Part shown: one piece after another, positions 3,783 through 22,855 of the stretch
How positions within the stretch are numbered: position 1 is the stretch's first letter
Layout: each line of letters opens with the position of its first letter
Program-made: the position numbers and the translations under genes
Notes under the pieces: model-generated
Database searches by the model: none
What the model was told of the DNA's origin: nothing
The model's input: the letters and a program-made list of their open reading frames with translations, nothing else
NCBI RefSeq assembly: GCF_017306585.1
Contig: NZ_JAFKIC010000170.1
Coordinates: forward strand, 1-32,053
From: Mesorhizobium sp.
GTDB lineage: Bacteria > Pseudomonadota > Alphaproteobacteria > Rhizobiales > Rhizobiaceae
Length of the DNA stretch: 32,053 nucleotides
Reading direction: 5' to 3'

Positions 3783-6353
3783 TCACTTAGCCTGGGCGAT
3801 CTGCTCAGCCACCAGGCGAAGTTCCTTCTCGTAGAAGCCTTCGAAGCCTGTGGAATAATGCTGCTCGCGAAAGATGTCGCGGGCGGTGATGAAGGCGTCG
3901 CGGGCCGCAAGCAGGCTTGCCTTGTCATGGGTTCTGGTGCCGATGGCGAGCAGGATCTCGCCGCGCACCGAATGGGTCTTGCCCCAGATGATTGGCGACT
4001 TGTCGCGCGTCAGTTCGGTCAGCGCCAGGTCCATCTGTTCCAGCGCCTTGCGGTAGCGGGGCAGGCTGTTTTCGGCGTCGCCCATGAAGCGGTAGGCGCG
4101 GCCCTGATTGTAGGTGATCGTGGCCCAGGTGAAGGGGTCCTGCTTGCGGGTAATCACCTCATGCGCCCTGTCGAAGGCGGCAAGCGCCTGGTCGAAGCAA
4201 TCCGGGCATTTGCCGCGCTGGCCGAGCGACAGAAGCACGGCGCCGAGATTGCTCTGCGTGTTGGCCCAGTCGACAGGCTGCGTCTCGCGGGTGCGGACTT
4301 GCAGGACATCCTGGAAGGCGGCCCGCGATGCTTCCAGTTTCTCGGTTCCGTCCTCGATCTCGCCGAGCTTCTGCAGGGCGACCGCCATGTTGGCCATCGC
4401 CATCGCCCATTGCACCGGCACCTTGGCGCGGGTCCAGACGGTGAGGGCGCCCTGGAAGGCGTCGATCGCGGCGGTGTAGTTCTTTCTTGCATCGCCGGCG
4501 TCGCCAAGCGCGGTGAACTCGTTGCCGATGTTGTTCTGCAGCCCGGCCCATTCGTCGGGGCTGGTCTTTTTCGTGTAGACCTTCGTCGCCTGCCGGTAGG
4601 CGTCCATCGCCCTGGAGTAATAGGCCGCGCCACCGGCGCGCTGCCCCATCAGGTCGTAGGCATTGCCCAGATTGATCAGCACGGTGGCCCATAATTCCGG
4701 CGTGCGCTTGCGGTTGAAGATCTTGAGGGCGTCCTCATAGACCTTGATCGCCTGTTCGACCCGAGCCGTGCCGTTCTCGCGCGCGGCCAGCGCCGTAAGG
4801 GTGATGCCCTCGTTGATGGCGACGCCGGCGGGACCGCCGGTGAAGACGGTGACGCCGGGCAACAGCTTGGCCGCTTCATAGACATCGACCGCTTGCGACA
4901 GGGCGGCGTTTTCGCCCTTGATCATGCCCTGGTCGGTCAGCGCGTCGCCCTCGAATATCTTGTAGATGAAGGCGGTCTTCGGATCCCAGCGCTCGGCCTG
5001 GCGGAACGCGTCTTCATAGCGCTGCGCGGCGGTGCGGTAGTCGAAATTCAGGATCGCGGTGCGGGCATGGTCGGCAAACGTGCCGGCCAGTTCCAGCCGC
5101 CGCTGGCGGATGTTGGCTTCAGCCTCGTCCAGCTGCCTGTCGATCTCCTCGGCGCGGGCGCTGGCCTTGGCGCGGAAGGTCAGGGCCAGCTGGACGGCGC
5201 CTTCCGATTGCGCGCGGTCGGCAAGGCCGGAAAGCCGAATCAATTCCGGGTCCTGCCGGGTTTCGGTGTCGTGCCGGGCGAGGATTTCACGCAGCTTCTG
5301 GGCGCCGGCGGCAAGCTGCGCCTGCAAATCGCTCGGCCCGGCCGAGGTGTCGACCTGAAGCGCGCCCAGCATGCCGTAGAGCTGGTCGAGCGGCACCTCG
5401 TTCTGGGCAGCTACGGTCTCGACCATGGAGCGCTGCTGCGCCGGCGTGGCGGCGATCGTCAGCAGCAGCTGGCGGCGGGCCGAACGGATCGAGGCTTCGT
5501 CGCCGCCGGTTTCTTCCGGCGCCTGGCCGAAATAGAGCAGGCGCCGCAGGCTGGCATTGGTCCATGGCAGTTGCCGGCCGCCGGTCTTCACGTAGACTTC
5601 CTCGGCAACCATGGTCATGACGTCGCCGAAGGCGAAACCGCCGGCGGCCAGATGTTTCAGCAGCGCCGCGGCATAGGGGCTGTTGCCGCCCGGCTCACCA
5701 TCCAGCGCGGCATGGCCGGGCTCGGCGGCGAAGCCGATGACCTCGCCCAGGCTTTGCGGCGCGCCCGACGCATCCGCGAGGGGCGCCGCGCCGCGCGCGA
5801 GATCGAGCCCGGCGGCGGCGACCGGCGCCGGACCGGACGGCGCTGCCAGCGTCGCACCCGCAGGAAACGGGTTCGAACGGCAGGCGTCGAGCAGCATGAT
5901 CGCCACCGGAACGGCGGCCTTAAGCTGCGCCAGCAAGGCGGATACGGGCACCAGCCGGTTCGCCGGATCGGAGAGCGAGGAGGCATCCGCGTCGACCGGC
6001 ACCAGATAGTTCTCGCCGCCGGCCTCGATGCCGTGGCCGGAATAGTAGAGCAGGGCGACATCGGCGCCGGCGGCGTCCTCGACGAAATGCTTGAGGCCGC
6101 GCGCCAGACGGGCGCCGTCACCGTCGGGAATGGAGCTGACTTCGAAGCCCAGGCTGTTCAAAAGCTGGGCCACGGCGCGCGCGTCATTGGCCGGGTTGGG
6201 CAGGGCGGGGAGCGACAGATACCGGGATTCGCCGATAACCAGCGCCACGCCGCGCAGCGGCCTGGCGTCGTCGGCCCGCGCCGGCCATGCCGACACGAGA
6301 CCTTGCGCCAGAAGCAGTACGGCGCAGAAAGCAAAGCGATACCACGCCGCCAT
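3783..6353 (-). CDS. Exported caspase-like (peptidase C14) protein with TPR-type repeats
   Basis: This 856-residue protein has a cleavable signal peptide (hydrophobic FAFCAVLLLAQGLVSA, then A-R-A-D-D). It continues with a metacaspase/caspase p20-like domain, residues ~32-290: RGVALVIGESRY, then YYSGHG with catalytic His107, then LLDACRSNPF with catalytic Cys158. A coiled, charged linker follows (~340-430). The C-terminal half is a helical repeat array with the recurrent unit R-x3-P-x2-WA-x5-N-x-G, visible six times (for example RTPELWATVLINLG, TSPDEWAGLQNNIG, TQPVDWANTQSNLG), typical of TPR-like scaffolds. The product is expected in the periplasm, where the repeats would bind partners or substrates. 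It is monocistronic, convergent with the GST. Bacterial caspase-TPR proteins are widespread but their substrates are mostly unknown; proteolysis after Arg/Lys is a family expectation, not shown here. Confidence 0.92.
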   Translation of the reverse strand: MAAWYRFAFCAVLLLAQGLVSAWPARADDARPLRGVALVIGESRYLSLPALPNPANDARAVAQLLNSLGFEVSSIPDGDGARLARGLKHFVEDAAGADVALLYYSGHGIEAGGENYLVPVDADASSLSDPANRLVPVSALLAQLKAAVPVAIMLLDACRSNPFPAGATLAAPSGPAPVAAAGLDLARGAAPLADASGAPQSLGEVIGFAAEPGHAALDGEPGGNSPYAAALLKHLAAGGFAFGDVMTMVAEEVYVKTGGRQLPWTNASLRRLLYFGQAPEETGGDEASIRSARRQLLLTIAATPAQQRSMVETVAAQNEVPLDQLYGMLGALQVDTSAGPSDLQAQLAAGAQKLREILARHDTETRQDPELIRLSGLADRAQSEGAVQLALTFRAKASARAEEIDRQLDEAEANIRQRRLELAGTFADHARTAILNFDYRTAAQRYEDAFRQAERWDPKTAFIYKIFEGDALTDQGMIKGENAALSQAVDVYEAAKLLPGVTVFTGGPAGVAINEGITLTALAARENGTARVEQAIKVYEDALKIFNRKRTPELWATVLINLGNAYDLMGQRAGGAAYYSRAMDAYRQATKVYTKKTSPDEWAGLQNNIGNEFTALGDAGDARKNYTAAIDAFQGALTVWTRAKVPVQWAMAMANMAVALQKLGEIEDGTEKLEASRAAFQDVLQVRTRETQPVDWANTQSNLGAVLLSLGQRGKCPDCFDQALAAFDRAHEVITRKQDPFTWATITYNQGRAYRFMGDAENSLPRYRKALEQMDLALTELTRDKSPIIWGKTHSVRGEILLAIGTRTHDKASLLAARDAFITARDIFREQHYSTGFEGFYEKELRLVAEQIAQAK

Positions 6354-6791: not shown

Positions 6792-8306
6792 TTGAGTCGA
6801 GACATGACCGTTGCGATCGAGATGGGCCACACCTCGGCGGGAGCCCCGGCAAACCTCGATCTGGAGGAGCTGCTGGCGACCCGCCTTCTGGTGCAGGGCA
6901 ATTCGGGCTCCGGCAAGTCGCATCTGTTGCGGCGTCTGCTCGAACAGAGCGCGCCCTGGGTGCAGCAGACCATCGTCGATCCCGAAGGCGACTTCGTGTC
7001 GCTGGGCGAGCGCTACGGCCATCTGGTGATCGATGCCGAGGAGCACACCGAGCGCGGCCTGCAGGCGGCCGGCGAGCGGGCGCGCATCCATCGCGTCTCC
7101 ACCGTGCTCAACCTCGAAGGCCTCGACGCCGAGAACCAGATGCGGCGCGCCGCCGCGTTCCTCGGCGGGCTGTTCGAGGTTGCCCGCGACCACTGGTATC
7201 CGATGCTGGTGGTGGTGGACGAAGCGCAGCTTTTCGCGCCGGCCGTCGCCGGCGAGGTTTCCGACGAAGCGCGCAAACTTTCGCTGGGCGCCATGACCAA
7301 CCTGATGTGCCGTGGCCGCAAGCGCGGACTGGCCGGTATCATCGCCACCCAGCGCCTGGCCAAACTCGCCAAGAACGTCGCGGCGGAAGCGTCCAACTTC
7401 CTCATGGGCCGTACGTTCCTCGACATCGACATGGCGCGCGCGGCCGACCTGCTCGGCATGGAACGGCGCCAGGCGGAAGCCTTTCGCGACCTGGAACGCG
7501 GGCAGTTCATGGCGCTCGGGCCGGCGCTGTCGCGGCGGCCGCTGGGGCTGCGCATCGGGCCGACCGACACCAGCCCGCGCAACGGCACGCCGAGGCTGAT
7601 GCCACTGCCGGAAGCGGCATTGGAGGATGCACGCGCCATCATCCTGGCCGCGCCGCCGCCGGACGCGGTGCGCGCGCCGCGCCGCGTGGCGTCGCCGGAC
7701 CTCCTGGAACAATTGATGGCGGCGAAATCCTCGCCGCTGGAAATCCGTCCCGAACCGGCCGAGCCGGCGCCCAGCGCCGAGGACCTTGCCGAACGGCGCG
7801 AGCGCATGGACCGCATCCTGCGCGCTATCCTGGCCGAACCCGATGCCGGCTTCCGCGTCATCGGCGTGCTCTACCAGGAATTCGTCGTGCGCTGCCGCAT
7901 CGAGGGGCTGGCCTCGGTGGTGCCGGACCTGCAGGAATTCCGCCGCATGCTGACGCGCGCCCGCGCCGGCGTGGGTTCGGACATGGCCGAGGACGATGCC
8001 TGGCGCGACGTTTCGGTGCGCGCCTCGCTGCTGCCCGAGGATATGCAGGGCGTGTTCATGATGATCGCGCGGGCCGCCAAGGAGGGCTGGGCGTGCCCCA
8101 GCGACGCGGCGATCGCGCGCGCCTATGGCTCGCACTCCATGCGCCGCGCGCGCCGCCTTCTCACCTATATCGAGGAGCAGGGCCTGATCGTGTGCCAGCT
8201 CGATGGCACGGGAAAACGCACGGTGACGCTGGTGGAGCTCGCCTGGGCGACCGCACCCGGCGACCCCAATGCCGAGGAGGCGGAGCAGGGGAGCCTGGCG
8301 CTATGA
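6792..8306 (+). CDS. HerA/DUF87-type ATP-binding protein
   Basis: This 504-residue P-loop ATPase has Walker A GNSGSGKSH at residues 36-44 and Walker B MLVVVDEAQLF with Asp143-Glu144. An arginine-rich CRGRKRGLAGIIATQR segment follows, of the sort that forms sensor or arginine-finger regions in the HerA/FtsK superfamily. The C-terminal third (~330-490) has no P-loop; around residues 435-480 it reads as a winged helix (GWACPSDAAIARAYGS, ARRLLTYIEEQGLIV). The TTG at 6792 is chosen because AGGAG (6781-6785) lies six bases before it; the ATG at 6804 would be too far. Its last codon overlaps the next gene as ATGA. HerA ATPases usually drive DNA translocation, often with NurA nuclease, but no nuclease is nearby. 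DNA binding is inferred from fold only. Confidence 0.88.
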   Translation: MSRDMTVAIEMGHTSAGAPANLDLEELLATRLLVQGNSGSGKSHLLRRLLEQSAPWVQQTIVDPEGDFVSLGERYGHLVIDAEEHTERGLQAAGERARIHRVSTVLNLEGLDAENQMRRAAAFLGGLFEVARDHWYPMLVVVDEAQLFAPAVAGEVSDEARKLSLGAMTNLMCRGRKRGLAGIIATQRLAKLAKNVAAEASNFLMGRTFLDIDMARAADLLGMERRQAEAFRDLERGQFMALGPALSRRPLGLRIGPTDTSPRNGTPRLMPLPEAALEDARAIILAAPPPDAVRAPRRVASPDLLEQLMAAKSSPLEIRPEPAEPAPSAEDLAERRERMDRILRAILAEPDAGFRVIGVLYQEFVVRCRIEGLASVVPDLQEFRRMLTRARAGVGSDMAEDDAWRDVSVRASLLPEDMQGVFMMIARAAKEGWACPSDAAIARAYGSHSMRRARRLLTYIEEQGLIVCQLDGTGKRTVTLVELAWATAPGDPNAEEAEQGSLAL

Positions 8307-9115
8307 GCGCCATGTCCGGACAGGGTGGATGGCCGGACGGCAAGGCCGCCCGGGTCCGCATTATGGGGACGCCGAGGTCCGGGACGAATCTCGCCAAGCA
8401 TCTCGTCGAAACATATCTGGGAGCCCCGGCCGTCTTCGACCGGAGCTTCTGGAAGCATGGGGTCTTTCCGGCGCTGATGGACGGGCGCGTGCTGCAATAT
8501 GGCGGCCTGCCCATCATCGTCATGAGCAAGGACCCTATCAGCCAGCTCCTGTCCTGGTTCCGGTTCACCAGGAACGACAGCATTTTCAGGCCGAACAGAT
8601 ATCTTGGATCGTTCCTGAGCGGACCTTTCGAGATCAGGCAGGATTTCACGCAGCCGAACCAGATGGAGTACAGGTTCCGCACGCCGGCCGACTACTGGAA
8701 CCAGTTCTACTTCGCCTTGGGCGCCCTTCGCCGGGCCGGCGCGCCAGTGCATTTCGTGCGCTACGAGGATCTTGTCGCGAAGCCGGACCAGTGCCTGAAT
8801 TCGATTTCACGCTTTCTCGACTCCGCCATGCCCTTTGATGCAGGCACGGCTGTACCGCTCCCGCAATATGCGATCGGCTCAAGCAACGACATCGACCGGC
8901 CCGCGGATCCGGCCGCCAATCAGGGTCCGTTCGACCCTTCGCGTGCGACCCTGTCATCGGCGCTTGCCAGGATCGGTTGGCGCAATGCGCGCCGCATCCT
9001 GCGCGACATAGACGATGACGTGCTCGATACGACGGGCCGCGCCGGCTTTCGCGAAACCTGCCGGCGGGCACTTGGCCCGGCGGCGATGGCGAGGTCGCTT
9101 ATCGGCTATTGGTAA
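8303..9115 (+). CDS. Sulfotransferase-like protein, paralogue A
   Basis: This is a 270-residue protein. The P-loop-like 5'-phosphosulfate motif GTPRSGTNL (residues 22-30) and the segment K76-D-P-I-S-Q-L-L-S84 fit the PAPS-binding plan of sulfotransferases. In that plan an R-x7-S pair holds the 3'-phosphate; here Lys replaces the usual Arg and the Ser is kept at the right spacing. The start ATG overlaps the TGA of the ATPase gene (ATGA, 8303-8306), so the two are translationally coupled. It is by eye about 60% identical over its length to the product at 14607-15452, sharing blocks such as FWKHGVFPALM, GGLPIIVMSKDP, ADYWNQF and SALARIGWRNA. The acceptor is unknown; a glycan or lipid is the family expectation in rhizobia. 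No signal peptide or membrane helix. Confidence 0.82.
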   Translation: MSAMSGQGGWPDGKAARVRIMGTPRSGTNLAKHLVETYLGAPAVFDRSFWKHGVFPALMDGRVLQYGGLPIIVMSKDPISQLLSWFRFTRNDSIFRPNRYLGSFLSGPFEIRQDFTQPNQMEYRFRTPADYWNQFYFALGALRRAGAPVHFVRYEDLVAKPDQCLNSISRFLDSAMPFDAGTAVPLPQYAIGSSNDIDRPADPAANQGPFDPSRATLSSALARIGWRNARRILRDIDDDVLDTTGRAGFRETCRRALGPAAMARSLIGYW

Positions 9116-9127
9116 GGCGGGTGTGGC

Positions 9128-9622
9128 CTACTTTCCCTTGCGGCCCAGCCCCATGGATTTGGCGAGCCTGGAGCGGGTGGCGGAGTAGTTCGGCGCCACC
9201 ATCGGGTAGCTGGGCGGCAGGTTCCATTTCTTGCGGTACTGGTCCGGGGTGAGGCCGTAATTGGTTTCGATATGGCGTTTCAGGGATTTGAACCGCCTGC
9301 CGTCCTCCAGGCAGATGATGAAATCGGGCATGACCGATTTTTTCACGGGCACCGCAAACCTGATTTCGTCCGGCCCTCCATTGGTGGCGCCATCGGAGAT
9401 GGCTTTGATCGAGGCGTGTATCCTGCCGATGAATTCGGGGAGCTCCGCGGCGGGAACGGGATTGTTCGAGACGTAGGAGGAGACGATATCGGCGGTGACG
9501 GAAATGATCGGGTCGAGTTGTCCGCTGCTTTTCGGGGCGCCTGTATCGGCGATGTCTATCAGCCTTTCCTCCAGTGCCCCGTCGGTTCGGATTATGGTTG
9601 GTCTCACATAAGGCTTCTTCAA
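9128..9622 (-). CDS. MucR/Ros-family transcriptional regulator with incomplete zinc site
   Basis: This 164-residue protein matches the MucR/Ros family. An acidic helical N-terminal part (about 35-80) carries oligomerisation in homologues. It is followed by the DNA-binding core DFIICLEDGRRFKSLKRHI, LTPDQYRKKW and the characteristic PPSYPMVAPNYSATRS-(R)LAKSMGLGRK tail. In Ros the zinc is held by Cys-x2-Cys and two His. Here Cys104 and His117 remain, the second Cys is Asp107, and the final His positions are Asn121 and Tyr122. Several M. loti Ros/MucR homologues (Ml proteins) are known to fold with altered or no zinc, so function is likely kept. MucR proteins regulate exopolysaccharide, motility and symbiosis genes and are autoregulated. 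The gene faces away from the DUF6502-like operon and shares its control region. Confidence 0.93.
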   Translation of the reverse strand: MKKPYVRPTIIRTDGALEERLIDIADTGAPKSSGQLDPIISVTADIVSSYVSNNPVPAAELPEFIGRIHASIKAISDGATNGGPDEIRFAVPVKKSVMPDFIICLEDGRRFKSLKRHIETNYGLTPDQYRKKWNLPPSYPMVAPNYSATRSRLAKSMGLGRKGK

Positions 9623-9705
9623 ACGATCTCTCCTTTGGCGCGCGGGCTCGGCGCATAGGCTGGGTGTAATGCGGGGAATCTGGTGGTTGCGGCAGATGGA
9701 GTTGT

Positions 9706-9734
9706 AAATTGTGGGAAAATTTCACACGTGTCAA
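9706..9734 (-). promoter_or_regulatory. Candidate mucR-like promoter with operator in the spacer
   Basis: On the minus strand a perfect -35 hexamer TTGACA (9734-9729) is followed after 17 bases by a weak -10, CAATTT (9711-9706). The spacer is almost wholly the palindrome at 9711-9727. Transcription would start near 9700 and read into the MucR-like gene, leaving about a 75-base leader. The weak -10 makes this a candidate only. Confidence 0.5.
9711..9727. promoter_or_regulatory. 17-bp palindromic operator, site 1
   Basis: GTGGGAAAATTTCACAC has 8-base arms around a central A with one arm mismatch. It is one of four related sites in this window (others at 9790, 12973 and 13015). It sits right after TTGACA on the minus strand, so a bound protein would block the MucR-like gene's own promoter. 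Confidence 0.7.
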
Positions 9735-9787
9735 CTGGGCGCGAGCCAGGGAAAGCGCCGCCGGTGCTGTACCTTCAGTCGGCGCTA

Positions 9788-9816
9788 TTGTGGAAACATT
9801 TCCCACGCGTTATTTT
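9788..9816 (+). promoter_or_regulatory. Candidate promoter of the DUF6502-like operon
   Basis: TTGTGG (9788-9793), 17-base spacer, TATTTT (9811-9816), pointing towards the gene at 9877. Both hexamers are imperfect (TTG kept at -35; four of six at -10). Operator site 2 covers the -35 element and most of the spacer. The leader would be about 55 bases. Confidence 0.4.
9790..9806. promoter_or_regulatory. 17-bp palindromic operator, site 2
   Basis: GTGGAAACATTTCCCAC, arms matching at six of eight positions around a central A. Its centre is 79 bp from the centre of site 1. It is the least perfect of the four and is the only one without an adjoining TTGAC element. Confidence 0.6.
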
Positions 9817-9876
9817 CGACAGGAATATCCGAGGGATGGATGACCAGTCACGGGATTGGCAAGTGAAGGACGACCG

Positions 9877-10746
9877 ATGAGCAAATCGGGGGGACAATAT
9901 CTGGATGCCGCCGGGATCCAGACCGCGTTGAACCGGGTGTTGCGCCCATTGGTGCGGCTGGCCATCAGATGCGGGGTGACGTTCCCGGCCTTTGTCGATC
10001 TGCTGCGCCAGCTCTATGTCAATGTGGCGGAGCACGAGTTCGCCTTGCCCGACAAGCAGCAGACCGACAGCCGGGTCAGCCTGCTGACGGGCGTGCACCG
10101 CAAGGAAGTCAGCCGGCTGAGAGGGGCGGGCGCTCCGGTGCGGGTGGTGCCCGATGCCGTTTCCAGGACGAGCGCCATCGTGGCGCGCTGGCTCGCCGAT
10201 CCGGCCTTCGTCGACGCCAGGGGCATGCCGTTGCCGCTGGCGCGGACAGGCGAGGCGGGAGAGCCGTCCTTCGCCGGGCTCGTCGAATCGGTGACGCGCG
10301 ATCTCAGGCCACGGGCCGTGCTCGACGACTGGCTCGACCGGAAACTGGTCGAGATCGACGGCGAGGACCGGATCGTGCTGATGGAAGGCGCCATGGTGCC
10401 GCGCGGCGACGGCGAGGTTCGGCTCTACTATTTTGCCCGCAATCTCGGCGATCACGCCGCGGCCGCGGTCGACAACGTGCTGGCCGACGCGCCGCCCTTC
10501 CTGGAACGCGCCGTCCACTATGACGGGCTGTCGGAAGAGCTGGCGAAATCGCTGGAGGCCTACAGCCGCGAGATCGCGGTCGAAACGCTGCTGCGCCTCA
10601 ACAAATATGCCAACCAGGCCATTCAGAGCGATCCGGGCGGGACCAGCCGCTGGAACTGGGGTGTCTATGTCCTCACCTCGGATGGCACGTCGCTCGTTGC
10701 CGGGGAAAAGCCGGAGACCAGCAATGCCGGCGGAGAGACGGCATGA
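9877..10746 (+). CDS. DUF6502-like protein
   Basis: This protein is 289 residues from the ATG at 9877, which has GAAGGA six bases before it; a longer frame from 9856 lacks a ribosome site. The N-terminal part (ALNRVLRPLVRLAIRCGVTFPAFVDLLRQLYV) and LLTGVHRKEVSRL look like a helix-turn-helix-type fold. This is followed by an all-alpha region and a segment RYLYYF-like (E-V-R-L-Y-Y-F-A-R-N-L-G-D-H) towards residue 195. This arrangement is that of the DUF6502 family, whose role is unknown and which I recall being encoded beside a DUF5666 exported protein, as here. The next gene starts by ATGA overlap at 10743. No signal peptide, so it should be cytoplasmic. A regulatory role is plausible from the N-terminal helices but is not shown. 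Confidence 0.75.
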   Translation: MSKSGGQYLDAAGIQTALNRVLRPLVRLAIRCGVTFPAFVDLLRQLYVNVAEHEFALPDKQQTDSRVSLLTGVHRKEVSRLRGAGAPVRVVPDAVSRTSAIVARWLADPAFVDARGMPLPLARTGEAGEPSFAGLVESVTRDLRPRAVLDDWLDRKLVEIDGEDRIVLMEGAMVPRGDGEVRLYYFARNLGDHAAAAVDNVLADAPPFLERAVHYDGLSEELAKSLEAYSREIAVETLLRLNKYANQAIQSDPGGTSRWNWGVYVLTSDGTSLVAGEKPETSNAGGETA

Positions 10747-11867
10747 GCTGGAGGCCGACGCGGCGTGAGTTCCTGACGCTCGGCGCCGCCCTGCCGGCGG
10801 TGATTTGCGCGATCCCGGCAAAAGCCGGCGACGCGTCGAAGGACCAGGGCATCGGCGGCACCGGCTGGACGGCCGGGACCGATGGCGACCAGGGCATTGG
10901 CGGCACCGGCATCGTCGGCACGATCCAGCGCTTCGGCAGCATTTTCGTCAATGGCGTGCGGGTTCAGTACCAGGCCGATGTGCCGGTCTGGATGGATGGC
11001 GTGCGCGTTACCCCGGACAGGCTGAAGGTGGGGCAAGTGGTGCGGGTCGCGGTGGTCAACAAGGACGGCCGCGTCGTCACTTCGGCAATCCATGTCACCA
11101 GCGAAGTGGTCGGGCCCGTCGAACGCAAGACAGCCGGTTCGATGTGGGTCGTGGGCCAGCATGTCGACATCAGCGGCATCGACGGAACGAAAATCGCCCT
11201 GGGCGATATCGTGGCGGTCCATGGCATCCGGCGGCCCGATGGAAAGATCGTCGCCAGCCTGGTGGAATCGAGGCCGAAGGGGACACCCTATCTGGTGCAC
11301 GGTCTGGCCACCGTGAGAGCGGGCGACTTGCTGGTCGGGCGGCTCAGGATCGGAACGGGGTCGTCGCCGCTGGCAAACCGGCGCGTCCAGCTTACGCTTG
11401 CCAAGGCGTCGGGCGGCTACAGGATACTGCATCTCGAGGCGGAGGCGCCGGTGCCGCGGAGCGCGGTCGCGAGCGTGCTTTACGAGACCTTCCTGCAGCG
11501 CCGTGGAGACCGTCTGGCATCGGGCCTCGGCGTCACCGTCGACAGCCAGAAGGGCGATGTGAAATCGGCCGGATTCGTCCGCGCCTTCCTCGATGTCGGT
11601 TTCGACCGGTCGGGAAATGTCGTGTCGGCATCGCGTGATCCGGGTCCGGGCGGGCCTTCGCCAAACCAGTCCGGCGCGCCCGGTCAGCCTCCGGGTGGAC
11701 CAAACGGGCCGAACGGCCCTGGCGCGCCGGGCGGCCCTGGTGGGCCTGGTGGCCCCGGCGGACCTGGCGGACAGAACGGCCCGGGTGGACCTGGTGGCCC
11801 CAGTGGACCTGGCGGACAAAATGGCCCGGGTGGCGGTCCCGGCAATGGTGGGCCGGGAGCCCCTTAG
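10743..11867 (+). CDS. Tat-exported DUF5666-like protein with collagen-like Gly-Pro tail
   Basis: This 374-residue protein starts in an ATGA overlap with the gene before it. Its N-terminus has a twin-arginine signal, [15 protein letters not shown], cleaved around A-K-A-G. A short Gly-rich segment contains D-Q-G-I-G-G-T-G twice. Residues ~55-290 form beta-rich repeats such as [18 protein letters not shown] and [12 protein letters not shown], the OB-like pattern of DUF5666 proteins. The last ~75 residues are a low-complexity Gly-Pro-Gly/Gly-Gly-Pro tail with Asn and Gln spacers, resembling collagen-like sequence. Tat export implies folding in the cytoplasm, perhaps with a bound factor. The mature protein is expected in the periplasm or at the cell surface, with the tail acting as a stalk or polymer contact. 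Function is unknown. Confidence 0.8.
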
Positions 11868-11933
11868 ATAAGGTCGCCTTTCACCGGGACAGCGACTGTT
11901 CCGACGCCCTGTCCGGATTTTCGGGAGCCTGCG

Positions 11934-12218
11934 ATGCGTGAAAAATACGATCTCGAAAAGGAGCTGACCATCAGCCTGTCGCAAGCCAGGGCGGCTGTTT
12001 TGATGGATATCTGTGCCAGGTGCGCCGGCTTCGGCCTCGCGCCGGAAGAGGAGCATGTGCTGCGCGAAATCGAAGCTGCGGTCGAGGCGCGGATCGATTT
12101 CATCCTCGATCCCGACTACGGGGCGATCCTGGCCGACATCAGGAGCGGGCTGCGGAGGGAGATCGGCTTCGGGGATGCCGGGGAAGAAGGGCCTTCCGGC
12201 CCGGCTGGCAACCCATGA
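11934..12218 (+). CDS. Small hypothetical protein (94 aa)
   Basis: Acidic helical protein beginning MREKYDLEKELTISLSQA, with a GGGAG ribosome site just before the ATG and a 66-base gap after the DUF5666-like gene. It contains C-A-R-C-A (two Cys, residues ~27-30) and ends in a Gly/Pro-rich piece. Its stop overlaps the start of the next gene (ATGA), which supports real translation. It belongs to no family I recognise. The position suggests it serves the same process as the DUF6502/DUF5666-like pair. Confidence 0.65.
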   Translation: MREKYDLEKELTISLSQARAAVLMDICARCAGFGLAPEEEHVLREIEAAVEARIDFILDPDYGAILADIRSGLRREIGFGDAGEEGPSGPAGNP

Positions 12219-12625
12219 TCTGGTTCGACGCGGCCCTCGAATATCCCGCGGACGACGAGCTCCTGAGGCGCGGTATCGCGGCGTTGCTGGGGTTGGAAGC
12301 CTCGGAGGTGGATGTGGTCCATGACATGGGCGGCCTGCGTGACGCGCCCGTGACCTGCCTTGTCCGCGACGGTTCGGGGCACGCCTATTCGCAGATGGTC
12401 TCGCTCTACCTCGCCACCGACGTCCAGCAGCCTGATGCCGTCGAGAGTGGCGCGCGGCTGGCGCGATTGCTGGACCGGTCGTTGCTGCTTGCCAACGATG
12501 CCACGGCGGACCCGTATTCGTTCATTCTCGCAACGAGGACGGGAGCGTGGTCGGTCGTATCCGTCGACCGTGCGGCGCTGGACGAGCACGGCATTCATGT
12601 CATCTCGACGCAGGAGACGCCTTGA
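12215..12625 (+). CDS. Hypothetical protein (136 aa), last gene of the DUF6502-like operon
   Basis: The ATG at 12215 overlaps the preceding stop. A longer frame from 12020 runs out of phase through the previous gene and is rejected. The sequence starts MIWFDAALEYPADDELLRRG, has EVDVVHDMG, GHAYSQMVSLYLATD and ARLARLLDRSLLLANDATADPY, and shows an alternating strand/helix pattern of a small alpha/beta protein with no signal peptide. I do not recognise the family; the pattern of a compact cytoplasmic protein with N-terminal W-F-D-A resembles small immunity- or adaptor-like proteins, but this is weak. It is coupled to the 94-residue protein and probably works with it. Confidence 0.65.
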   Translation: MIWFDAALEYPADDELLRRGIAALLGLEASEVDVVHDMGGLRDAPVTCLVRDGSGHAYSQMVSLYLATDVQQPDAVESGARLARLLDRSLLLANDATADPYSFILATRTGAWSVVSVDRAALDEHGIHVISTQETP

Positions 12626-12682
12626 GCGGGCAGGGCGACGCCGGCCGCGATGACGGCATGCCGGTCCAGGGGAAGCGATGAT

Positions 12683-12721
12683 CCGGCCGGCCCGTCCCTT
12701 GCGATGGACGGAACCGGCCGG
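12683..12721 (+). terminator. GC-rich hairpin after the DUF6502-like operon
   Basis: CCGGCCGGCCCGTCC (12683-12697) pairs with GGACGGAACCGGCCGG (12706-12721), loop CTTGCGAT. It lies 58 bases after the last stop codon. There is no T-run on either side, so if it ends transcription it is not a classical intrinsic terminator. Confidence 0.45.
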
Positions 12722-12967
12722 CACAACCGTACGGGGCTCGTTGTAGGGGCTCGAGCTTTCCTGGGGTACGGCTGCTCTTCCACGGACCATGCGGGGGGCG
12801 GATGGTCCTTGGAAATACCGAGAGGAAATCGTGAGAGCATTGCCGGCGAAAACGGTCTCGCCGCGCCTGCCCGATCTCGTCTTTTTCATGCAATTCCCAA
12901 GGCAAGACCGCCGCGCGCTTTTGCCGGGATCGCTCGGTTCCTTTCCGCTGATATCGTCGACGAAATC

Positions 12968-12996
12968 AGTATGTGGGAAAAATACCCACAAGTCAA
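12968..12996 (-). promoter_or_regulatory. Candidate leftward promoter containing operator site 3
   Basis: On the minus strand TTGACT (12996-12991), 17-base spacer, CATACT (12973-12968; four of six consensus bases). The operator at 12973-12989 occupies the spacer. It points left into a stretch with no recognised minus-strand gene, so any transcript may be an untranslated RNA or antisense to the end of the DUF6502-like operon. Confidence 0.4.
12973..12989. promoter_or_regulatory. 17-bp palindromic operator, site 3
   Basis: GTGGGAAAAATACCCAC, arms matching at six of eight positions around a central A. Flanked on the minus strand by TTGACT. Its centre is 42 bp, about four helical turns, from the centre of site 4, a spacing that would let two bound dimers face the same side of the DNA. 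Confidence 0.7.
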
Positions 12997-13009
12997 GCGA
13001 TGTGATCTC

Positions 13010-13038
13010 TTGACGTGGGTAATTTTCCCACGTATTTG
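13010..13038 (+). promoter_or_regulatory. Candidate glycosyltransferase operon promoter with operator in spacer
   Basis: TTGACG (13010-13015), exactly 17 bases, TATTTG (13033-13038). Operator site 4 runs from the last base of the -35 to one base before the end of the spacer. The glycosyltransferase start is about 155 bases downstream. Confidence 0.55.
13015..13031. promoter_or_regulatory. 17-bp palindromic operator, site 4
   Basis: GTGGGTAATTTTCCCAC, the best palindrome of the four: seven of eight arm positions pair around a central T. It fills the spacer between TTGACG and TATTTG, which fits direct repression of the glycosyltransferase-sulfotransferase operon. Confidence 0.75.
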
Positions 13039-13192
13039 AAATCGATAGCGGGGACGATCATTCGCAGAGCCCCGGGGCCCCTCGATGGGGACAAGACAGC
13101 AGAATCCGGAATGCCGCGGCTCAGACCGCCACGGATGTCTCGTTGCCTCCGCATCGAGCCAATGCCCTGAAGCAATTTCGGAAGGTAAGCCG

Positions 13193-14614
13193 TTGAAGAC
13201 ATTGTATATCGATGCCACCCTGCCTTTGCGCTGGGGGTCGCATCCGCCTGTCGGCATCCCGCGCGTCGAGACGGCTCTCATCCGGCAGGCGCTGCGCTGG
13301 AAGGCCTCGCCGGTCGGTTTCTTCATCGTCGACAAATGGGGCCACGGGCACACGCTCGACGAGGCCGAGCTTGCCTATCTCAGGCGGCTCGTCGAAGGCG
13401 AACTGCCGCAACCGATCGGCGGCGAGGGGAGTTCTTATCCGGCGCGCCTGTGGAAAGTGCTGTCGATGATCCGGGCGGCACCCTTCGCCTGCGGCCGCGA
13501 GTTCGATCGGGTCGCGGCGATCTTCCTGTCGGGCTCCGAGAAGCGACGCGGCATCAAGTTCCAGCTGTCCAAGACGGCCATCCGGCTCTTCAAGCTCGTC
13601 AAGTCAGCGCTGCGGCCAAGCAGGCTCGACACCGGCGATCCGCTCAGGGATGAAAACGCCATATGTTTCCTGTCGAGCACCAGCGTGCATGAGCTTGCCT
13701 CGGGCAAGCTCGCGGCGAAGAAAGCCAGATGCGGCATCTTCACCCTGATGCACGATCTCATCCCGATCGACTATCCGCAATTCATCGGCCCGCATCATGC
13801 TCGCGGCTTCGTGCGCAACACGGCATGGCAGCTGGAGAATGCGCGCCTCCTGCTCTGCGTTTCGAAATACACCGCCGAGAGGGTAAGGAGCCACGCGATG
13901 GCGACCAATCCCCAGCGCATTCCGGAGGTCGCGGTCGCATCGCCCGGGGCCTTCCTGAAGGAGGGCGTCGCGGACCGGGGCATGTCAGCCGAAAGGCAGA
14001 GGCGCGGCCGCAAATTCGTCCTCTACTGTTCGACGATCGAGATCAGGAAAAACCACATCCTGCTGCTCAAGGTCTGGCACCGGCTTCTGCCCCTGTTGGG
14101 AGACCGGCTGCCGACGCTCGTCCTGTGTGGCCGCTGGGGCTGGATGTATGAAGAGCTCACCGCCTTCATGGCTGAGCATCCCGAACTCGGCGAGCATGTC
14201 CAGTTTCGCTCCGGCATTGGCGACCAGGAGCTGGCGGAACTCTATCGGGACGCCGAGTTCAGCGTCTATCCCTCGGCGGTCGAAGGCTGGGGCCTGGGCG
14301 CGGCCGAGTGCCTCGATTTCGGCCTGCCGGTGCTGATCTCGGACGCGCCCTCGCTGACGGAAGCCACGCAAGGGCTGATGCCGACGCTTCCCGCGCGCGA
14401 TGTCGAAGCCTGGTGCGCCGCGGTCGCCAAGGCCTGCACCGATCCGGTCTGGCTCGCCGAACTGCGCCACACGATCGCGTCGCGATACCGTCCGATCAAG
14501 GAGCGTGAGTTCTTTGCGACGGTGTTGAAGCATGCCACGGCGCTTGGCCTTGGCCACGTACAAGATGCCGTGAGCAGCGAGGCCATGCCGCAGCGGGTCC
14601 GGGCCTATGGGTGA
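13193..14614 (+). CDS. GT4-type glycosyltransferase
   Basis: The protein is 473 residues if the TTG at 13193 is the start, which has GGAAGG about six bases before it and begins directly at the first beta strand (KTLYIDATLPLRWG). An ATG at 13085 would add 36 unlikely residues without a ribosome site. The C-terminal Rossmann half has LYCSTIEIRKNHILLLKVW, LPTLVLCGRWGW and the nucleotide-sugar motif SAVEGWGLGAAECLDFGLPV (E-x7-E type, ~residues 362-381), which places it in family GT4 with a retaining mechanism. The N-terminal half has CGIFTLMHDLIPIDYP, the acceptor-side H-D motif of mannosyl/rhamnosyltransferase-like members. No signal or membrane helix, so it acts in the cytoplasm on the inner face. 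It overlaps the next gene by 8 bases. Sugar and acceptor are unknown. Confidence 0.9.
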   Translation: MKTLYIDATLPLRWGSHPPVGIPRVETALIRQALRWKASPVGFFIVDKWGHGHTLDEAELAYLRRLVEGELPQPIGGEGSSYPARLWKVLSMIRAAPFACGREFDRVAAIFLSGSEKRRGIKFQLSKTAIRLFKLVKSALRPSRLDTGDPLRDENAICFLSSTSVHELASGKLAAKKARCGIFTLMHDLIPIDYPQFIGPHHARGFVRNTAWQLENARLLLCVSKYTAERVRSHAMATNPQRIPEVAVASPGAFLKEGVADRGMSAERQRRGRKFVLYCSTIEIRKNHILLLKVWHRLLPLLGDRLPTLVLCGRWGWMYEELTAFMAEHPELGEHVQFRSGIGDQELAELYRDAEFSVYPSAVEGWGLGAAECLDFGLPVLISDAPSLTEATQGLMPTLPARDVEAWCAAVAKACTDPVWLAELRHTIASRYRPIKEREFFATVLKHATALGLGHVQDAVSSEAMPQRVRAYG

Positions 14615-15452
14615 AAGACCAGTGTTTCCGCAGGATCGGGCGGCGGCGATCGTGGGAAGTTCCGCTTTCGGCACCGTATCGCCGGACCTTGCCGGCGTGC
14701 GCGTGATGGGCACGCCGCGCTCGGGCACCAACCTCGCCAGGCACCTCATCGAACGCTATCTCGGTGTTCCCGTGGTCTTCGACCAGGGGTTCTGGAAACA
14801 CGGTGTTTTCCCGGCGCTGATGAACGGGCGCGAGATCGACCATGGCGGCCTGCCCATCATTGTCATGAGCAAGGATCCGGTCACCCAGATCCTGTCCTGG
14901 TTCCGCCTGGCGAGGAACGACACGATCTTCAGGCCGAACGGCAGCTTCGCCTCGTTCCTGCGCAGCCCGTTCGAGGTCAGGCAGGATTTCACCGAGCCGA
15001 AGCGGATGGAATACAGGTTCGGCTCGCCGGCCGATTACTGGAACCAGTTCCATTTCGCCATGGATGCGTTGCGCCGCGCCGGCGCTCCGGTGCATTTCCT
15101 GTGCTATGAGCGGCTGGTTTCGGAACCGGCCCTGTCGCTGCACATGCTGTCGCATTTTCTCGGCCGCGCCGTGCCTTTCGACGTGCGCTGCCCGGTCGAC
15201 ATTCCGCGCCATACGCTCGACGCCGGCAATGATGTCGAGGATGCCGACACGCATGGGCGAAGGCCGTTCGACCCCGCCCGCGCCGAGCTGGCCTCGGCGC
15301 TGGCCAGGATCGGCTGGCGCAATGCGGCCATGATCCTGCGCGGCATCGACGAGGATGTGCTTGCCGCCACGGACCGGGCCGGGTTCCGCGCGGCGTGCCG
15401 CGAGGCGGCTGGCGCCAGGGCGATGCTGAGGTCGCTTCTGGGGCCTTGGTAA
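14607..15452 (+). CDS. Sulfotransferase-like protein, paralogue B
   Basis: This 281-residue protein is encoded with an 8-base overlap on the end of the glycosyltransferase gene, so the two form one operon. The 5'-phosphosulfate loop GTPRSGTNL is at residues 35-43 and the 3'-phosphate pair K89...S97 lies in SKDPVTQILSW, again with Lys for the usual Arg. Conserved blocks with paralogue A at 8303-9115 run over nearly the full length, without large gaps; B has about 11 more N-terminal residues. Catalytic base cannot be assigned with certainty. Coupling to a GT4 enzyme suggests sulfation of the glycan that enzyme builds. Rhizobia are known to sulfate Nod factors, K-antigens and LPS, but this protein is not clearly NodH, NoeE or LpsS. 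It could instead use another nucleotide donor. Confidence 0.82.
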   Translation: MGERPVFPQDRAAAIVGSSAFGTVSPDLAGVRVMGTPRSGTNLARHLIERYLGVPVVFDQGFWKHGVFPALMNGREIDHGGLPIIVMSKDPVTQILSWFRLARNDTIFRPNGSFASFLRSPFEVRQDFTEPKRMEYRFGSPADYWNQFHFAMDALRRAGAPVHFLCYERLVSEPALSLHMLSHFLGRAVPFDVRCPVDIPRHTLDAGNDVEDADTHGRRPFDPARAELASALARIGWRNAAMILRGIDEDVLAATDRAGFRAACREAAGARAMLRSLLGPW

Positions 15453-21373: not shown

Positions 21374-22558
21374 CTATACAAAGAAGTCGAACTGCGCGGC
21401 GGTCAGGTCGGTCGCGGTGATGCCGGTCAGGGTAAGCGTGTCGCCGCCGCCGAAGTCGATGACCGTATCGGCGCCGACCTGCGACATCAGGCCGGCGAGG
21501 TCGGAGAAGTCGTCGACACCCGCGAAGGCGCCGATGCTGATATGCTCGCCCGTCGTCGCCAGCGACAGGTCGGTGATGGTGTCGGCGCCATCGCCAAAAT
21601 GGAAAATGAACGTGTCGGCGCCGGCGCCGCCGGTAAGCACGTCGCCATTTCCCGCGCCGCCGGCGAGCGTGTCATTGCCGTTCTGGCCGTTCAGCGTGTC
21701 GCTGCCATAGCCGCCGTAAACGATGTCGTCTCCGTCTCCGGCATTGACGAGGTCGTCACGGCCAAGCGCGACGGCGTCCGTGGCGTTCTTGCCAGCCAGA
21801 TAAATGATGTTGTTGTCGGTGCTGTAGCCCCGGATTTCCTCGATGCCGTTGAGGGCCGTCTGGGTGAAATCGAGAGGCGCCGATCCCGCATAGGCTGAAA
21901 TCTTCACGCCGGTGAACGTGCCGAACTCCAGACTGGTGTTGGTGATCTCCTCGATGCCGGTGATGGACTTGATGCCGATGAGGAAGTTGTTCTGGATGGC
22001 GACGATCCGGTCCGTTTCAGTGCCGCCGTCATATTTCGTGCCGCCGTAGCAGGGCTGTCCGACAAAGAAGTCGTCATTGCCCTGTCCGCCAATGGCGGTC
22101 AGATTGCCGCTATAGCTGAGATACAGATCGTCGTCATCGTAGCCGCCATCGATGATGGATGCGGCGGTCGAGCTTCCAATGCCCATCTTGATGACGTCGT
22201 TTCCGGTGCCGCCATAGAGGCTGTCGGCGCCGCCGCCGCCGTCGATGTAGTCGTTGCCGCTGCCACCGTCGATGACGTCGTTGGCGCCGAGGCCCCAGAT
22301 CTGGTCATCACCCTGTTCGCCATAGGCGTAGTTGGTGACGTTCGAATTCTGCAGATAGATCTTGTCGTTGCCGTCGCCGCCCCAGATGCGGGCATTGCCG
22401 ATATAGAATGATGTGTAGCCGACGCTGTAGGCGTAGATGACATCGTCGCCCCCGTAGCCGTAGATGATGTCGTTTCCGCCCTTGCCGGAAATGACGTCGG
22501 CCGAAGACGTGCCGGTCAAGGTCTGACCGGCGCTCGTGCCATTGATTATCATATTCAT
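21374..22558 (-). CDS. RTX calcium-binding protein, probable type I secretion substrate
   Basis: The protein is 394 residues from the ATG at 22558, which is preceded by GGAGGA; the upstream frame to 22633 has no ribosome site. It lacks an N-terminal signal and starts MNMIINGTSAGQTLTGTS. It contains two blocks of nonapeptide RTX repeats (GGxGxDxxx): one at ~20-160 (GGNDIIYGYGGDDVIYA, GSGNDYIDGGGGADSLYGG) and one at ~290-345 (GDGDDIVYGGYGSDTLNG, GGAGADTFIF). Between them is a repeat-poor segment of ~100 residues. The C-terminal end DLTAAQFDFFV is the hydrophobic, acidic tail that type I exporters recognise. Calcium outside the cell would fold the beta-roll. No transporter genes are nearby, so a distant system would have to export it. 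Its activity is unknown; such proteins serve in adhesion, biofilm or nodulation (NodO-like). Confidence 0.88.
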   Translation of the reverse strand: MNMIINGTSAGQTLTGTSSADVISGKGGNDIIYGYGGDDVIYAYSVGYTSFYIGNARIWGGDGNDKIYLQNSNVTNYAYGEQGDDQIWGLGANDVIDGGSGNDYIDGGGGADSLYGGTGNDVIKMGIGSSTAASIIDGGYDDDDLYLSYSGNLTAIGGQGNDDFFVGQPCYGGTKYDGGTETDRIVAIQNNFLIGIKSITGIEEITNTSLEFGTFTGVKISAYAGSAPLDFTQTALNGIEEIRGYSTDNNIIYLAGKNATDAVALGRDDLVNAGDGDDIVYGGYGSDTLNGQNGNDTLAGGAGNGDVLTGGAGADTFIFHFGDGADTITDLSLATTGEHISIGAFAGVDDFSDLAGLMSQVGADTVIDFGGGDTLTLTGITATDLTAAQFDFFV

Positions 22559-22855
22559 TCTCCTCCAAAATTCGACGGGTTTTGCCAGGGAACGGGTCTC
22601 CCGAGGTGTTTTTAACCCGGCCTGTGGCGGCAATGGAGGAAGTCTAGCAGTGTTTTATTTTGCCGCCAGTAGTCAGATCAAGTTTTTGTTATCGAGAGGA
22701 AGTTCTATCGAAATATATATTGTATTTCTAAAATTAGATATTGCTTGCATTGCGATGGTGTCGGGGAGGCGTGCCCGCTCCGGCTGCCATCCCGGCCTGG
22801 CATGTTGCCGGACCCGCCGGTAAGGTGTGCCCAGAACGATTCACGGGAGCACGCC
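22559..22855. other. AT-rich divergent intergenic region, RTX gene and cupin gene
   Basis: The 297-bp gap is clearly richer in A and T than the rest of the window, most of all at 22680-22745. It should contain both promoters. No RNA gene, repeat or small protein gene was recognised. Confidence 0.5.
22652..22681 (-). promoter_or_regulatory. Candidate RTX gene promoter
   Basis: Minus strand TTGATC (22681-22676), 18-base spacer, TAAAAC (22657-22652), about 95 bases before the RTX start codon. The AT-rich tract directly upstream could act as an UP element. Confidence 0.35.

Follow-up and report, generated by a model that had tools for sequence, protein, structure and literature searches.

We analysed a 32,053-nucleotide stretch of Mesorhizobium sp. 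DNA (assembly GCF_017306585.1, contig NZ_JAFKIC010000170.1, forward strand; hereafter, the window), in which two control regions carry four copies of a 17 base pair (bp) palindrome. The DUF6502 protein encoded between these regions is probably (roughly 0.8, in our estimate) a helix-turn-helix (HTH) autorepressor that would bind the palindromes and also control a mucR-like gene and a glycosyltransferase–sulfotransferase gene pair. The sites and genes concerned are the following.

9711–9727, no strand: candidate operator O1, GTGGGAAAATTTCACAC, inside the leftward promoter-like region of the mucR-like gene
9790–9806, no strand: candidate operator O2, GTGGAAACATTTCCCAC, inside the rightward promoter-like region of the DUF6502 gene
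12973–12989, no strand: candidate operator O3, GTGGGAAAAATACCCAC
13015–13031, no strand: candidate operator O4, GTGGGTAATTTTCCCAC
9128–9622, minus strand: mucR-like gene, ROS_MUCR, 164 amino acids (PF05443, expect value (E) 3.6e-47), probable target
9877–10746, plus strand: DUF6502 gene, 289 amino acids (PF20112, E 3.1e-31), proposed DNA-binding regulator and autorepressor
10743–11867, plus strand: second gene of the DUF6502 operon, DUF5666-domain protein (PF18914, E 9.8e-8)
13193–14614, plus strand: GT4 glycosyltransferase (PF00534, E 2.8e-16), TTG start assumed, probable target
14607–15452, plus strand: sulfotransferase (PF00685, E 1.4e-5), overlapping the end of the glycosyltransferase gene

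All four palindromes were found where a preliminary description of the window had placed them. In a scan of the window with GTGGGN5TTCCCAC, only the O1–O4 positions matched with up to two mismatches, in agreement with its remark that no other convincing copy was present; with up to three mismatches, 20 matches were obtained against 31.6 expected, so only close matches are informative. The whole genome (7,086,805 bases in 385 contigs; 7.09 Mb) was then scanned with GTGGGW7CCCAC. Exact matches lay at 12973 and 13015 only, one mismatch gave 9711 only, and two mismatches gave three places, namely 9790, C218:19759 (which by eye resembles a tRNA arm) and C149:6091. The hundreds of equally good matches that the preliminary description had named as a refuting outcome did not appear. 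At up to three mismatches there were 43 sites compared with 73 for a reversed control pattern, and the remaining matches are therefore background. When the A/T rule was dropped, GTGGGN7CCCAC occurred at four places in the genome, two of them in the window, and the control at 11. No mention of the exact operator sequences (five variants) was found in the literature searched. The palindromes are a local operator set and not a global motif; the original observation is real and stronger than first claimed, and a new operator and mini-regulon located in the two control regions are supported.

Each palindrome is embedded in a pair of promoter-like hexamers, predicted as follows by match to the consensus.

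9706–9734, minus strand: promoter-like TTGACA-17-CAATTT around O1, reading to the mucR-like gene
9788–9816, plus strand: promoter-like TTGTGG-17-TATTTT around O2, with a weak −35, kept in 10 of 10 sequences
12968–12996, minus strand: promoter-like TTGACT-17-CATACT around O3, reading leftward to a structured element
13010–13038, plus strand: promoter-like TTGACG-17-TATTTG around O4, reading to the glycosyltransferase gene

All four sites fall between the −35-like and −10-like hexamers, those at 9711 and 12973 overlapping leftward and those at 9790 and 13015 rightward hexamers. One site per orientation in each region had been proposed earlier from the better half-site; the arrangement is borne out, with the divergent promoter-like hexamers replacing the half-site argument as its better basis. 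Across ten sequences (the window and nine related loci), the TTGACA at O1 is kept in all ten, with a weak and variable −10-like hexamer, and the TTGAC beside O3 and that beside O4 are each kept in nine; the −10-like hexamers are mostly poor. A consensus promoter scan of 9500–13300 returned one candidate promoter only, around O3. O2 lies between the −35, itself weak, and the −10 of the predicted promoter of the DUF6502 gene itself, as judged by sequence only. In the 80 DUF6502 loci described below, TTGAC stood at either edge of 73 of 187 sites, compared with 3.2% of other upstream positions, and most loci of Bradyrhizobium and Methylobacterium had a further site beginning approximately 41 bp ahead of the start codon.

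These loci were obtained by scanning named genomes with a 23-protein DUF6502 alignment and taking the best 80 of at least 578 relatives, from Mesorhizobium, Bradyrhizobium, Methylobacterium, Bosea, Kaistia, Methylocystis, Lichenibacterium and others. With sites defined by up to two mismatches in GTGGG/CCCAC and at least four of seven A/T in the centre, the 400 bp preceding the DUF6502 gene held two or more sites in all 80 loci. The 190 upstream sites amount to 5.5 per kilobase (kb), compared with 0.107 per kb for the 98 sites in the remaining 912,589 bases, a background count that includes further conserved operators, for example those before the glycosyltransferase gene. Paired sites were 24–197 bp apart over the 80 loci and 39–146 bp apart in the glycosyltransferase region of the nine loci aligned below; the spacing being variable, it is the sites that are kept and not their distance. 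DUF5666 was detected in 77 loci, and a MucR-like gene (tblastn, approximately 6 kb either side) in nine, which are the Mesorhizobium-type loci L100–L108 (seven named Mesorhizobium and two metagenome-assembled genomes). In these nine, two sites are also retained ahead of the glycosyltransferase gene. In an alignment of the window with the nine loci, counting only columns filled in at least nine of ten rows, operator columns of the mucR-like/DUF6502 region had a mean identity of 0.99 against 0.73 outside, with 97% against 24% invariant; the values for the glycosyltransferase region were 0.95 against 0.68 and 79% against 19%. The sites were kept in all nine Mesorhizobium-type loci fetched, and the absence of conservation, the other refuting outcome named in the preliminary description, did not occur.

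We also analysed an order sample of 297 genomes by Pfam search for PF20112 and a scan for exact GTGGGW7CCCAC. The exact motif was present in 11 genomes (18 sites), and the reversed control gave four sites in four genomes, none of them with DUF6502. DUF6502 itself was present in 22 genomes, 21 of them over the family cut-off, and all 11 exact-motif genomes were among these 21. The association of motif and DUF6502 gave Fisher values of 1e-14 by genome and 1.7e-7 by genus (the motif occurs in seven genera, and these all belong to the 16 of 122 that have DUF6502). For four genomes (G045, G174, G188 and G293), in which the exact site lay on a contig other than that of the DUF6502 gene, the value was 3.5e-6. 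Kinship is not fully corrected in any of these three tests. Ten of the 21 over-cut-off genomes had no exact site; with a matrix partly trained on these loci, a near match (score of at least 13 of 30.8) lay beside the gene in 22 of 22 over-cut-off loci. In four congeneric genomes (G099, G130, G225 and G278), DUF6502 and a glycosyltransferase are encoded divergently, with two palindromes in the region separating the two genes. Seven same-genus genomes of the order sample (G069, G105, G136, G209, G229, G248 and G265) had neither DUF6502 nor the exact motif, and the locus is present in seven named Mesorhizobium species, indicating a patchy distribution in the genus. A phylum sample of 398 genomes contained three members of the order with the motif, and each of these carried DUF6502.

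The preliminary description had proposed a single factor with a small regulon, the factor being either the MucR-like protein or a separate dimeric HTH protein. One factor and a small regulon are supported in the places named. That the MucR-like protein (9128–9622) is the factor at the palindromes, acting on its own gene and the neighbours, would agree with an adjacent regulator gene having a site in its promoter region, but its gene was detected beside the sites in only nine of the 80 DUF6502 loci, yet all 80 have sites. The motif follows DUF6502: it is kept without a neighbouring MucR in Bradyrhizobium, Methylobacterium, Kaistia and others, the search covering approximately 6 kb on either side, and in the order sample its exact form occurs only in DUF6502-encoding genomes. 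In addition, Ros/MucR proteins are reported (PMC5693944) to read short AT-rich cores with a T-A step via the minor groove. On the basis of this distribution and the reported binding mode, the MucR-like protein was rejected as the binder, a role that we regard as very improbable; its gene is probably a target instead. A separate dimeric HTH protein fits, and is most likely DUF6502, which had previously been counted among the targets.

Co-occurrence alone cannot name the binding protein, and an unseen third regulator, encoded by a gene unlinked to the locus and always co-occurring with DUF6502, was also considered. Such a regulator must share the patchiness of DUF6502 (22 of 297 order genomes) across genera, and the sites cluster in front of the DUF6502 gene itself; we consider this explanation very unlikely. 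The DUF5666 protein was likewise judged an unlikely binder because its N-terminus carries, by eye, a twin-arginine translocation (Tat)-like export signal.

In the mechanism that we propose, the DUF6502 protein would bind the palindromes as operators, as a dimer via an N-terminal HTH at about residues 64–81, the dimer being deduced from the palindrome only. By occupying the −35/−10 spacers, it would repress four promoters in this genome, namely those of its own operon (O2), of the divergent mucR-like gene (O1) and of the glycosyltransferase–sulfotransferase pair (O4), and a leftward promoter at O3 facing a conserved structured element. An operator in the −35/−10 spacer is usually linked to steric repression, and the location of all four window sites in such a spacer argues for this mode. 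Alternatively, DUF6502 might bind the sites and activate, or mix activation and repression by promoter: pairs of sites whose spacing varies might allow cooperative contacts or looping, and HetR, its nearest structural lead, is described as a master regulator of heterocyst development (PMC4649674). Against this stands the spacer location of every window site, and we hold activation, in whole or in part, to be unlikely. The computation establishes the sites, their rarity in the genome, their conservation, their position over promoter-like hexamers and their association with DUF6502, from which we infer direct binding, dimerization, repression in preference to activation, and any RNA product.

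The DUF6502 window protein scored 108.7 bits against PF20112 (cut-off 27), above the gathering score and its sole Pfam match; no Pfam HTH family was matched at E 0.01 and no NCBIfam family was matched, and the PHROGs search gave one function-unassigned family at E 0.036. Neither DUF6502 nor PF20112 was named in the literature searched. In the predicted model, helices 64–71 and 75–81 form the putative HTH, which is followed by a second winged-helix-like region. HTH-like geometry was present in both models predicted, with partial matches to DeoR, TetR-type and sigma HTHs.

Related palindromes are often located upstream of DUF6502 genes in other orders, such as ATGGGAAATTTTCCCAT in L096 and, as its reverse complement, in L090, TTGGGTAAACTACCCAA in L099, and ATGTGTAAATTGCACAT in L094 and L095. 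Five cases led to the prediction that TGGG accompanies lysine at residue 76 and TGTG accompanies arginine. In the later count, which includes those five and was scored on the fourth base of the best palindrome per locus, a palindrome of the class was assigned to 67 of 81 rows by a loose rule under which some picks are probably due to chance. Lysine 76 went with TGGG in 38 rows, with TGTG in three and with mixed half-sites in six, the corresponding numbers for arginine 76 being seven, 12 and one (Fisher value 1e-5, kinship uncorrected). Four loci (L207, L209, L222 and L224), where the helix pattern had no match, were left out. QRR helices had TGTG in nine of nine rows and QRK helices TGGG in two of two. 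The prediction missed arginine 76 with G in L048, L182, L183, L210, L212, L215 and L223, and lysine 76 with T in L203, L206 and L219; L048 and L203 each carry both kinds of site, yet were counted by one. As a trait of PF20112 as a whole, the upstream palindrome is found in all 80 of the nearest loci and, by the loose rule, in most of the wider rows, but not in the best-scoring members.

Several observations weigh against DUF6502 as the binding protein or limit the evidence for it. Being related and drawn from about a dozen genera, the 80 loci do not count as 80 independent cases, and co-occurrence would equally be expected of a gene in constant linkage with DUF6502, such as that for DUF5666. 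In the phylum sample, the exact motif outside the order was at chance level (seven genomes, none with DUF6502, compared with six for the control pattern) and was not found in any of the 14 DUF6502 genomes outside the order, ruling it out as a phylum-wide signature. No palindrome of the class was present in 14 of the 81 rows, including the top PF20112 scorers L082–L084, L198 and L199. Confidence in the two models was moderate (mean predicted local distance difference test values of 75.5 and 69.6), and their Foldseek searches, including the partial HTH matches, gave nothing significant. After correction for kinship on a tree, from which seven rows with mixed half-sites were left out, the link between helix and operator was represented by four independent pairs (seven on all branches) and was not significant.

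The remaining features between the two control regions are as follows.

11934–12218, plus strand: open reading frame (ORF) of 94 amino acids, without Pfam or NCBIfam match
12215–12625, plus strand: ORF of 136 amino acids, without Pfam or NCBIfam match
12671–12816, no strand assigned: conserved structured non-coding element, single copy in the genome

Similarity to the element was found at the same place in all nine Mesorhizobium-type loci, in L101 and L102 over 51–75 bp only, and its alignment covers all ten sequences with a predicted fold of hairpins. Because the structure was derived from the alignment used to score it, which favours the structure, the pairing values are to be read with that advantage: 93.6% of cells were paired, compared with 91.5 in shuffles, and changes on both sides were observed in eight pairs and 16 cells, compared with 5.2 and 7.5 in shuffles (17 and 0 of 500 as high) and with 0–5 pairs and 0–9 cells in slid versions of the alignment. 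Further pair types were not above the shuffles (372 of 500 as high), and G-U against C-A counts favoured neither strand decisively. The Rfam search gave no family at gathering scores, only weak rows at chance level. The element lies downstream of the leftward promoter-like hexamers that carry O3, under which no convincing leftward protein-coding gene was found; it is possibly an RNA under the control of DUF6502 at O3, or alternatively a 3′ element of the operon.

Two related sulfotransferase genes, at 8306–9115 (plus strand) and 14607–15452 (plus strand), flank the DUF6502/glycosyltransferase block, and both match one single gene in several relatives. Compared with the zinc-ligand pattern of its family, the MucR-like protein keeps the C, the D and one H, the last expected histidine being asparagine (HIETN), and it may fold without zinc. 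Some M. loti relatives are reported to do so (PMC5693944). Elsewhere in the window, by eye, an 856-amino-acid protein (3783–6353, minus strand) has a caspase-like domain followed by TPR-like repeats, and a 419-amino-acid protein (21374–22633, minus strand) has glycine/aspartate-rich nonapeptide repeats of the RTX calcium-binding type.

Further possible targets in relatives were assigned by nearest ORF only, in a small, hand-picked set with rough gene calls. Sites were located near a glycosyltransferase fused to an ABC-2 exporter domain and followed by an ABC ATPase in Bradyrhizobium macuxiense (L129), an ABC-2 permease in Bosea (L154), an outer-membrane beta-barrel in Methylocystis (L175), and a sulfatase approximately 0.6 kb away in L061 and L063. 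The other neighbours were a Sir2 protein with a divergent GDSL lipase (L067), a response regulator with a divergent HlyD-type protein (L064), a histidine kinase (L070), a methyltransferase (L068), another DUF (L069), and ORFs without family (L065, L062, L154 and L136). Export, surface and sulfate-ester genes recur in this set. The surface-glycan theme of several targets may hint at the inducing signal.

If correct, the proposal gives DUF6502 a testable function as an autorepressor with a named operator and a target list, and brings a MucR-type gene in rhizobia under the same dedicated local switch as glycosyltransferase and sulfotransferase genes. The MucR-type family is described as xenogeneic silencers in the title of PMC8857273. 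A far broader proposal is that DUF6502 represents an unrecognized proteobacterial transcription factor family with HetR-like architecture, a 17 bp NTGGG-N7-CCCAN operator and a lysine/arginine switch in the recognition helix that reads it, and that in Mesorhizobium it governs a MucR-type silencer, genes for surface-glycan modification and a new structured small RNA; this we offer tentatively, as a speculation that would probably not hold in full.

Finally, we compared the proposed system with known regulators. HetR entries provided the only full-length colinear structural alignments among the matches listed for the two DUF6502 models, at ranks 1, 6, 7, 15 and 21 for one and 1, 4, 6, 8 and 11 for the other. 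As described in PMC4649674, HetR has a novel fold, binds as a dimer to a 17 bp partial palindrome with GGG/CCC half-sites and also binds its own promoter; its GGGN5CCC core differs from the GGGN7CCC core of the window sites. Sequence homology was unsupported: hhalign gave probabilities of 0.1 and 0.3%, with two near-identical sequences as the HetR side, and a PDB profile search with DUF6502 returned no HetR among matches up to E 10. A plasmid search yielded no additional HetR sequences, and no report of HetR-like proteins in proteobacteria was found in the literature searched. The HetR-like architecture may thus serve as a structural lead only; if the resemblance is real, a regulator of cyanobacterial development would have proteobacterial counterparts. 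With Ros/MucR systems the window shares a family member encoded beside O1, but its 17 bp palindromes differ from the AT-rich five-bp T-A-step cores reported for M. loti and B. abortus proteins (PMC5693944). TetR-, MarR- and DeoR-type domains were among the partial fold matches of the DUF6502 models; unlike these types, DUF6502 matches PF20112 and no Pfam HTH family. Autorepressors with an operator in the −35/−10 spacer include regulators of the TetR, MarR and DeoR types, and the arrangement proposed here resembles theirs in its divergent promoters, its palindromic operators and the presence of the regulator's own gene among the targets.

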